Shown: positions 45,415 to 47,249 of the stretch, piece after piece
Numbering within the stretch: the stretch's first letter is position 1
Layout of the letters: each line of letters begins with the position of its first letter
Origin: Candidatus Parcubacteria bacterium
GTDB lineage: Bacteria; Patescibacteriota; Minisyncoccia; UBA6257; 2-01-FULL-56-20
Length of the DNA stretch: 47,249 nucleotides
Direction of reading: 5' to 3'
Assembly (NCBI GenBank): GCA_027450205.1
Contig: DAIDJL010000002.1
Span: 157,758 to 205,006, forward strand
Translations under genes and position numbers: made by a program
Notes under the pieces: generated by a model
The model's input: only the letters and a program-made list of their open reading frames with translations
Told to the model about the DNA's origin: nothing
The model's database searches: none

Positions 45415-45681
45415 AGGCCCTCCTCATCGACCTTCTTTTTCCAGTCTATCAAGAGCAGTGAGAATGTAAAGGATGCTGATGTGAGAGCGGGTTAGTGGAT
45501 GATGTCAGAACCTTTTACATAAGAAAGCCCAGCGAATTTGCAATTCCGGATTTAATGGATAATATTTCTTGATGAAAAGCTAGACAGAAATTCATTTTTC
45601 TGCTATATAATAGGCAGCCCTTAGGGTTACACAGCGCATTTCGATTTTGAGATGCGTCGTGATCTTCAAAGGAGAAACTCT

Positions 45682-47022
45682 ATGACAACTGAAAAGACGG
45701 AAGTGACGCTCCGTGAAGCGGTTGCCGATGATTCTGCATGGGTCTCCGATCTTATGCAGGATGCATTGGAACCGTATTACGGCGGCGATCATCGCGCCCA
45801 TGCCAAGCGCATTCTCGAAGCTCATCTGAGCGGAGGGATGGACTTGGTCGGCTTTTTCTCATTCGAGCAACGGATGTTCATCGCCGAAGTGAATGGCGTT
45901 CGTGCTGGGATGGTTCATCTCGTCGGCAAGCGGCAGGAAACCTACAAGATCAGTCCGCTTATCCTCGCTTCCGAATTTCGTGGGAAGCTTGGAATCGGGA
46001 GTATCTTGCTCGGCCACGCGGAGAAATATGCGCGCATTCACCATGCTCGCGAACTCTACTGCACGGTCGCAGAACAGAATGTCGGTGCTATGCAGTTCTT
46101 TCTTCGGAAAGGATTCATTCGCGCCGGTAGCTCTGCGAGCCACTACAAAGCGGGCATCGTGGAGACGATGCTCTATAAGATTCTCTACGAAGCGGATGAC
46201 GTCGCCGCTTACGAGGGAATGCAAATCTCCGTGGTGCCTTTTGAGCAGAAGCACGAAGCGCAGGTTACTAATCTACTGCTCTCTACGTTGCCGGAGTCAT
46301 TCGGTGGCGTTGACGAGAAGTGGGTCAAGGCGCTTTATGGCGGCTACGAGCGGCGGAACAGCGGCGACATCAATACGAAGTTCAAGCTGATTTATGTCGC
46401 GGTAACCAGTGCGGGAGAGGTGGTTGGCGTTGCGGGAATGACTCCAAAGAAGGGCGAGCCCATCAAGGTAATGCCGTTCATCGCGAAGAATAGAGCAGCG
46501 TTCGACGCATTGCTTATCGACCTTCCACACGAGCTCGTCCAATACGGACATAAGCTCTATATTCACATCAGTCCGACTGCGAATGAGGTTATCTCCCTCG
46601 AGCGCTTCGGATGGAAGTTGGATGCAGCGATGCCATCCGCATATCGCCCCGGAATCATTACCTACCAGTGGAGTCTGGAAATTGGAGCTACGACCATGAG
46701 AGAAATGAGAGTAAAGCCGCGCTTCATCAGTCTGATGCGCTCCAAGCGGAAGTCGTTGGAAGTGCGGGTCGGATATGACAACATCAACCGCATTCAGGTC
46801 GGCGAACGCATCAGGTTCGTTTCCCATGAAAGCGCTCTCGACGTTCGGGTAAATGCCGTCCGTCGCTATCTGTCAATTGCACAGCTCCTCGAAAAGGAGG
46901 CGTGGGAGAAGATCGCCCCCGACCTTCCCTCGAAAGAAGCCGTGTTCCAGTTGCTGAAGAACATCTATCCGCCAGAGAAGGAGAAACTGGGGATGGTGGT
47001 CCTCGAAATCGTTCCCGTCTAG
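45682..47022 (+). CDS. GNAT - degenerate GNAT - ASCH domain fusion protein (446 aa)
   Basis: N-terminal GNAT (ILASEFRGKLGIGSILLGHAEKYARIHHARELYCTVAEQNVGAMQFFLRKGFIRAG), second GNAT-like segment, C-terminal ASCH (KPRFISLMRSKRKSLEVRVGYDNINRIQVGERIRFV...LLKNIYPPEKEKLGMVVLEI). SD AAAGGAGA. Confidence 0.75.
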   Translation: MTTEKTEVTLREAVADDSAWVSDLMQDALEPYYGGDHRAHAKRILEAHLSGGMDLVGFFSFEQRMFIAEVNGVRAGMVHLVGKRQETYKISPLILASEFRGKLGIGSILLGHAEKYARIHHARELYCTVAEQNVGAMQFFLRKGFIRAGSSASHYKAGIVETMLYKILYEADDVAAYEGMQISVVPFEQKHEAQVTNLLLSTLPESFGGVDEKWVKALYGGYERRNSGDINTKFKLIYVAVTSAGEVVGVAGMTPKKGEPIKVMPFIAKNRAAFDALLIDLPHELVQYGHKLYIHISPTANEVISLERFGWKLDAAMPSAYRPGIITYQWSLEIGATTMREMRVKPRFISLMRSKRKSLEVRVGYDNINRIQVGERIRFVSHESALDVRVNAVRRYLSIAQLLEKEAWEKIAPDLPSKEAVFQLLKNIYPPEKEKLGMVVLEIVPV

Positions 47023-47033
47023 CGGTAGCAACC

Positions 47034-47075
47034 AATGGGCGTCCAAACGCAGTTATGCTTGGACGCCCATTTTCA
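47034..47075. terminator. Terminator between convergent ASCH genes
   Basis: AATGGGCGTCCAA (47034-47046) / TTGGACGCCCATT (47059-47071) plus TTTC. Confidence 0.75.
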
Positions 47076-47076
47076 T

Positions 47077-47249
47077 TCATAAAAGTTTTATCTCGATTCC
47101 AACGACCCCATATTTTTTCTCATCTTCGTCGGAGTAAAACTTTTTTAACACCGCCAAAAAATCTTCTTTGTTTTCTGCGCCGAACGAGGCAATTGGAAAA
47201 TGATTTAATAATTCAGAAAACGATGGATACGTATGGAGCGCCACTACCT
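47077..47249 (-). CDS. ASCH-domain protein, C-terminal fragment (5' end beyond window)
   Basis: Not in the ORF track. Minus-strand frame: VVALHTYPSFSELLNHFPIASFGAENKEDFLAVLKKFYSDEDEKKYGVVGIEIKLL*, matching the ASCH C-terminal pattern. Confidence 0.75.
   Translation of the reverse strand, partial: VVALHTYPSFSELLNHFPIASFGAENKEDFLAVLKKFYSDEDEKKYGVVGIEIKLL

Follow-up and report, generated by a model that had tools for sequence, protein, structure and literature searches.

Introduction

YqfB of Escherichia coli is an ASCH amidohydrolase for N4-acetylcytidine, of a type that acts on N4-acylcytosines; its K21A, T24A and R26A mutants are inactive, and turnover of the E74A mutant is down 100- to 1000-fold (PMC6972931). 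YqfB has no GNAT domain, and the archaeal ASCH proteins of solved structure, PF0455, PF0469 and PH0355, are likewise stand-alone. A GNAT domain fused to a PUA-like reader and accompanied by a separate ASCH gene has been described as the PIN-GNAT-EVE + ASCH system, PADLOC candidate PDC-M11 (PMC7641849). Two GNAT domains in one chain are found in 2wpw, from the clavulanic acid cluster, and in VipF, neither of which carries an ASCH domain. Among acetyltransferases of nucleoside antibiotics, puromycin N-acetyltransferase inactivates its substrate by N-acetylation and, to our knowledge, neither this enzyme nor blasticidin S acetyltransferase includes an ASCH domain. Resistance through acetylation is documented for blasticidin S (PMC4664946), and both enzymes offer a precedent for N-acetyl inactivation of a nucleoside antibiotic.

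Here we describe a 446-aa GNAT-GNAT-ASCH protein encoded in a 47,249-nucleotide stretch of DNA from a Candidatus Parcubacteria bacterium (the window). In the literature searched this composition is new, while its kind, a GNAT with a PUA-like reader and an ASCH, is already known; no papers linking an ASCH domain, a nucleoside and MazG were found there.

Results

The 446-aa protein combines a GNAT, a pseudo-GNAT and an ASCH domain

The open reading frame encodes 446 aa plus a stop codon (Table 1). An alternative open start lies 30 nt upstream of position 45682, which was preferred because the orthologues begin about there and because of the position of the ribosome-binding site. The first-pass annotation had read the product as a canonical GNAT, a degenerate second GNAT and a C-terminal ASCH domain, and all three parts proved right, both by sequence and by fold. 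Pfam matched Acetyltransf_1 to residues 58-145 of the first domain (GNAT1; E=2e-12), gave a weak GNAT match for the middle domain (GNAT2; E=0.038) and placed PF04266 at residues 343-443 (E=4.7e-4, with a score that just equals the curated cut-off, 21.2 bits). The assignment of the fused ASCH domain is nevertheless secure, since it matched PF0455 (1s04, E=3.7e-11), PH0355 (2z0t, E=5.7e-9) and also PF0469 by sequence. These archaeal proteins are the closest solved structures to the fused ASCH domain. The GNAT-GNAT-ASCH architecture is thus confirmed, and its conservation from end to end in independent loci indicates that the fusion is not a product of chance.

Table 1 Features of the GNAT-GNAT-ASCH locus and of related loci (coordinates without a locus prefix are positions in the window)
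Feature	Coordinates	Strand	Basis
Whole gene, GNAT / pseudo-GNAT / ASCH	45682..47022	+	ORF, Pfam, PDB sequence matches, AlphaFold2
AAAGGAG ribosome-binding site	45668..45674	+	read from sequence; 7 nt 5' of ATG
GNAT domain 1, residues ~5-170	45694..46191	+	PF00583 2e-12; fold matches Z ~20
Y33-G-G-D-H37 motif, presumed substrate-site element	45778..45792	+	alignments
Acetyl-CoA loop R100-G-K-L-G104-I-G106	45979..45999	+	alignments
Pseudo-GNAT domain 2, residues ~180-334	46219..46683	+	separate model pLDDT 91.9; Z 16.4 to RimI
ASCH domain, residues ~338-446	46693..47019	+	Pfam, PDB sequence matches, fold
ASCH signature K357-x-x-E360-x-R362	46750..46767	+	aligns with YqfB K21/T24/R26
Hairpin TGGGCGTCCAA...TTGGACGCCCA then TTTT, between convergent genes	47036..47073	+	read from sequence
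Partner ASCH gene, 3' part in window	47077..47249	-	whole gene 47077-47421, start beyond window; Pfam ASCH 3.8e-11
aaRS-like + ASCH loci	L125:2891-4327, L127:2876-4336, L129:2931-4381, L130:1883-3354, L071:4294-5735, L143-L154		
Rhodococcus plasmid p1 cluster around GNAT-GNAT-MazG	L131:4539-20770		

A full-length AlphaFold2 model built from a six-sequence alignment reached a mean pLDDT of 83.9 and a pTM of 0.64; its individual domains appear sound and their mutual arrangement is less sure. When compared with known GNAT structures, the GNAT1 model gave Z ~20, with 2r7h in first rank (rmsd 2.0 Å over 153 residues), and the middle domain, folded alone (pLDDT 91.9), had its best GNAT match in RimI, 2cnm (Z 16.4, rmsd 2.4 Å over 140 residues). 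Residues 338-446 superimposed on 2z0t (PH0355) with Z 18.5 and an rmsd of 1.5 Å over 107 residues, the identity in structural alignments being 31-32%. The full-length Foldseek list was headed by tandem-GNAT proteins, 2wpw (E=2e-11) and VipF among them, for which no specific sequence relation to the 446-aa protein was seen, and among these tandem-GNAT chains a closer functional relative was not found.

The acetyl-CoA loop of GNAT1, RGKLGIG, is one residue longer than the canonical R/QxxGxG, an insertion conserved in the family, and its Gly104 and Gly106 are invariant across orthologues. No such pyrophosphate-binding loop (R/QxxGxG) was present in the GNAT2 region of the alignment, although this region shows its own set of invariant residues, PKKG and GWxL motifs among them; "degenerate" is thus an apt description of a domain that has the GNAT fold and lacks the loop. 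The two outcomes named in advance as contradicting the original reading were the reverse of what was found: the C-terminus is an ASCH domain, and the loop glycines of GNAT1 are kept in all orthologues. On the presumed substrate side, Y33, G35, D36 and H37 are invariant in the family and in a Rhodococcus homologue described below. GNAT1 has Phe at position 140, where many GNATs have a general-acid Tyr. These conserved substrate-side residues are not enough to name the substrate.

Scattered distribution of the fusion

Full-length relatives with 48-63% identity were found in at least 9 other Patescibacteria and Lokiarchaeota loci. The bacterial carriers are scattered, comprising MAGs named Doudnabacteria/Wildermuthbacteria, Paceibacterota, Berkelbacteria and others, and are joined by one Lokiarchaeon. 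In a sample of 379 genomes of the phylum, GNAT-GNAT-ASCH was present in 7, the source genome included, and it was absent from all 60 other genomes examined of the source genus, family and order (0/60). The scattered occurrence, together with this absence in close relatives, suggests that the gene has spread by horizontal transfer. No full-length GNAT-GNAT-ASCH was found in phages, plasmids or IMG/VR, the phage matches being to ASCH only. Copies with the same sequence (L003, L007 and L008; likewise L005, L010 and L020) were counted once. Identical fusion genes and flanks occurred in L003, L007 and L008, from two differently named Patescibacteria MAGs, possibly through a binning error.

A second ASCH gene adjoins the fusion gene

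A separate ASCH gene of ~110 aa adjoins GNAT-GNAT-ASCH in each of the ten independent loci, and three arrangements occur. The two genes are convergent in five loci (the window genome, L002, L003, L004 and L018); in the other five they share a strand, with the partner upstream of the fusion gene in three (L016, L017 and L020) and downstream of it in two (L015 and L006). In the source genome the partner corresponds to L021:9835-10179 (-), and the hairpin that separates it from the fusion gene is likely a terminator, judging by its sequence. Since any ASCH match at E 1e-5 was obtained in 68/379 genomes of the phylum, and taking our own estimate of ~900 genes per genome, the probability of chance adjacency would be below ~0.1% per locus. 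Eight of the partners form an ESRLYDEKR-type clade apart from the fused ASCH domains, the L015 and L006 partners belonging to other types. PADLOC models gave no match for most of the partners and a weak PDC-M11B match for one. The Lokiarchaeota locus also contains, directly upstream of the fusion, a PDC-M11B-class ASCH gene (L006:4421-4906, 9.6e-51), which brings its ASCH domains to three.

The fused ASCH domain keeps only some of the YqfB catalytic residues

The proposal of acetyl chemistry in the first-pass annotation had drawn on YqfB, an analogy that fails at the catalytic level. The ASCH fold is shared, and Lys21 and Arg26 of YqfB are kept as K357 and R362 and conserved throughout the aligned ASCH domains, whereas all GNAT-linked and partner ASCHs have Glu in place of the nucleophile Thr24 (Glu360 in the 446-aa protein). 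The acid Glu74 is not conserved either, with D, G, N or Q at the aligned column in the fused ASCH domains, the alignment being less sure there. Tyr89 is retained by the fused ASCH in each of the ten loci and by most other ASCH domains aligned, the exceptions being Phe in the G167 partner and in the aaRS-linked ASCH of G173, and Gly in G309. Three other Patescibacteria ASCH proteins, of a "TWRL" type, retain the K, T, R and E of YqfB. Because of the Thr24 to Glu change and the lack of conservation of Glu74, the fused ASCH appears more likely to be a binder than an amidohydrolase, and YqfB-like deacylation by this domain is disfavoured.

A homologous GNAT-GNAT core lies in an apparent cytosine-nucleoside-type cluster

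Only one relative of the GNAT-GNAT core without ASCH was found, Actinomycetota being covered through their plasmids: protein WP_156895395.1 from plasmid p1 of Rhodococcus sp. 2G (32% identity over residues 24-331, E=1e-29). The two cores align domain by domain, GNAT1 to GNAT1 and GNAT2 to GNAT2, and both contain the motifs YGGDH, KISP, YCTV, PKKG, GW and QW. Both proteins end in a domain from a nucleotide-related family, which in the Rhodococcus protein is, instead of ASCH, a MazG-like domain (PF12643, E=6.9e-6, scoring 26.7 bits where the cut-off is 27); in Actinomycetota genomes the core may have further C-terminal partners. The surrounding cluster encodes NDP-sugar functions, a DegT aminotransferase, a methyltransferase, glycosyltransferases, MFS/ABC transporters and an adjoining efflux MFS protein, together with a BlsM/CMP-N-glycosidase homologue (6.5e-22 to 5vto, 6.3e-17 to 4jen) and a cytosylglucuronate-synthase-like protein (TIGR04467, 1.1e-56, 192.7 bits against a curated cut-off of 300). 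From these genes the cluster looks like a biosynthetic one of the cytosine-nucleoside type, in which the GNAT-GNAT-MazG protein may have a part in resistance, in tailoring or in some other process.

The Lokiarchaeota fusion gene, too, is followed at a distance of 1.7 kb by a MazG-like gene, and other Patescibacteria ASCH genes neighbour NUDIX, Maf and MazG genes. The earlier proposal of an acetyl chemistry directed at a nucleoside, an RNA or an RNA-bound substrate is therefore sustained in its direction only, by the Rhodococcus protein in its cluster and by these neighbours, and loses the YqfB analogy.

Discussion

We tentatively favour, at somewhat less than even confidence, the view that the 446-aa protein is a tandem-GNAT N-acetyltransferase that acts on a cytosine-type nucleoside or nucleotide and belongs to a mobile cassette of two genes. 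GNAT1 would bind acetyl-CoA and transfer the acetyl group, the pseudo-GNAT domain would form part of the substrate pocket, and the fused ASCH would hold the nucleobase or nucleotide moiety; in the Rhodococcus homologue the MazG-like nucleotide pyrophosphatase domain occupies this position. The free ASCH encoded by the adjacent gene might act on the same ligand or together with the fusion protein, and the likeliest benefit would be the inactivation of a toxic nucleoside, whether a damaged nucleotide or an antibiotic of the cytosine-nucleoside kind. We count in support of this view the MazG-fused core in a nucleoside cluster, the Lokiarchaeota MazG-like gene, YqfB-type chemistry, the adjacency in 10/10 loci, the scatter and the blasticidin precedent. 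Against it stand the MazG-type homologue being a single one, at 32% identity, and Phe140 in GNAT1; moreover, ASCH and PUA-like domains bind RNA and DNA too. No other antibiotic-related genes were recognised in the flanks of the Patescibacteria copies.

The main rival, which we consider doubtful, is a conflict system parallel to PDC-M11, in which the fused ASCH would read a modified DNA or RNA base and direct acetylation, and the free ASCH would be a second reader or a regulator. Both have the composition of a GNAT joined to a PUA-like reader and accompanied by an adjacent, separate ASCH gene, and the scattered distribution fits mobile cargo in both cases. We recovered PDC-M11 loci in Asgard archaea, with EVE, GNAT and ASCH identified by Pfam and PIN by our own reading of the N-terminus, and these PDC-M11A/B loci fit the published description (PMC7641849); the Lokiarchaeota GNAT-GNAT-ASCH locus, with its PDC-M11B-class ASCH just upstream, also speaks for the parallel. 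The 446-aa protein, however, has two GNATs and neither PIN nor EVE: its N-terminus is a GNAT (PIN is optional in the PDC-M11 family), its C-terminus is an ASCH, and an EVE domain was absent from the host genome at E 1e-8. Membership in PDC-M11 was accordingly rejected, the defining EVE and PIN being missing. In the tree the fused ASCH is of a different class, and the adjacent ASCH genes are of other classes as well, with the PDC-M11B class only in the Lokiarchaeota locus. Nor do the GNATs appear specifically related: PDC-M11A matched the 446-aa protein at E=0.008 and the GNAT-ASCH of G167 at 3e-9, no better than general GNAT models, and a local profile matched G167 only. Furthermore, no restriction-modification genes were recognised around the GNAT-GNAT-ASCH copies, and both the MazG fusion and the nucleoside cluster in which it lies favour mononucleotides.

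Three further readings start from other features of the locus. Upkeep of the RNA or nucleoside pool, by acetylation of an endogenous (d)NTP, nucleoside or RNA base that is modified or damaged and with no antibiotic or phage involved, would suit the other Patescibacteria ASCH genes that have NUDIX, MazG, Maf, HIT or comparable genes as neighbours, or that encode fusions to phosphatase, inorganic pyrophosphatase or RNase H-like domains; those ASCHs are mostly of other classes, including the Thr-bearing YqfB-like type, and a scattered presence speaks against housekeeping, so that we regard this as unlikely. The existence of GNAT toxins and the small gene adjacent in every locus recall a toxin-antitoxin pair, with the fusion acetylating aminoacyl-tRNA and the free ASCH neutralising it. 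We give this little probability: the partner is convergent, upstream or downstream depending on the locus, against the usual co-transcribed order; it is an ASCH protein and no HTH or RHH antitoxin; and toxins of the AtaT/TacT type differ from a long tandem-GNAT architecture. The variation in gene order in particular makes this reading weak. An acetylation/deacetylation couple, in which the GNAT makes an N-acetyl nucleobase and one ASCH removes the acetyl group, would draw on the N4-acetylcytidine amidohydrolase activity of YqfB (PMC6972931) and on the retained Lys21 and Arg26 equivalents, and is scarcely probable given Glu in place of Thr24 in the fused and free ASCH of every locus and the unconserved Glu74.

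Should the nucleoside acetyltransferase reading be true, it would provide a substrate class for a group of ASCH domains so far without an assigned function and an acetyltransferase family tied to nucleoside chemistry, and small-genome Patescibacteria and an Asgard archaeon would share a compact two-gene cassette, possibly one for nucleoside-antibiotic resistance; this reading also offers a simple assay panel. In a wider version, which we judge improbable, the ASCH domains of this clade would be nucleobase-reading adaptors for nucleoside-acylating enzymes, where GNAT partners (GNAT-GNAT-ASCH, GNAT-ASCH and ASCH-GNAT) acetylate and class-I aminoacyl-tRNA-synthetase-like (aaRS-like) partners, which occur in actinophages, in plasmids and in a single Patescibacteria genome, aminoacylate, amounting to a widespread unrecognised strategy of resistance or defence by nucleoside capping.

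Other ASCH architectures

A survey of GNAT-ASCH fusions had been recommended at the outset, and the phylum-wide ASCH survey did reveal other combinations of the two domains: a GNAT-ASCH fusion plus an ASCH (L070), a reversed ASCH-GNAT fusion plus an ASCH (L039), a pair of overlapping GNAT and ASCH genes (L076) and, in L086, what by eye appears to be a GNAT-ASCH remnant, a short open reading frame beside an intact ASCH gene (L086:1936-2121). The domains of L070 and L039 were confirmed by Pfam, as was the GNAT in L076. A relation to GNAT1 is detectable for the GNAT domains from L070 and L076 and not for the one from L039.

A class-I aaRS-like protein with HIGT- and KLSKS-like motifs was seen fused to, or encoded directly before, an ASCH of the same clade in Streptomyces and Amycolatopsis plasmids, in phages Mojorita and Picard, in one Patescibacteria genome and in 12/12 IMG/VR loci found; it had no match in Pfam and none by sequence in PDB. 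In that Patescibacteria genome (G173), an ASCH of the partner type is convergent to the aaRS-linked ASCH (L071:3894-4644) and, by eye, a tyrosine-recombinase-like gene is adjacent. We also observed a histidine-phosphatase-ASCH fusion (L072:3165-4052), a fusion of ASCH, inorganic pyrophosphatase and GrpB (L074:3830-5122) and an ASCH with a domain that by eye looks like RNase HI (L073:3652-4467). Finally, Thr-bearing YqfB-like ASCH genes of Patescibacteria (L078:2931-4062, L084, L085 and L088) lie beside genes that by eye are MazG-, NUDIX- or Maf-like.
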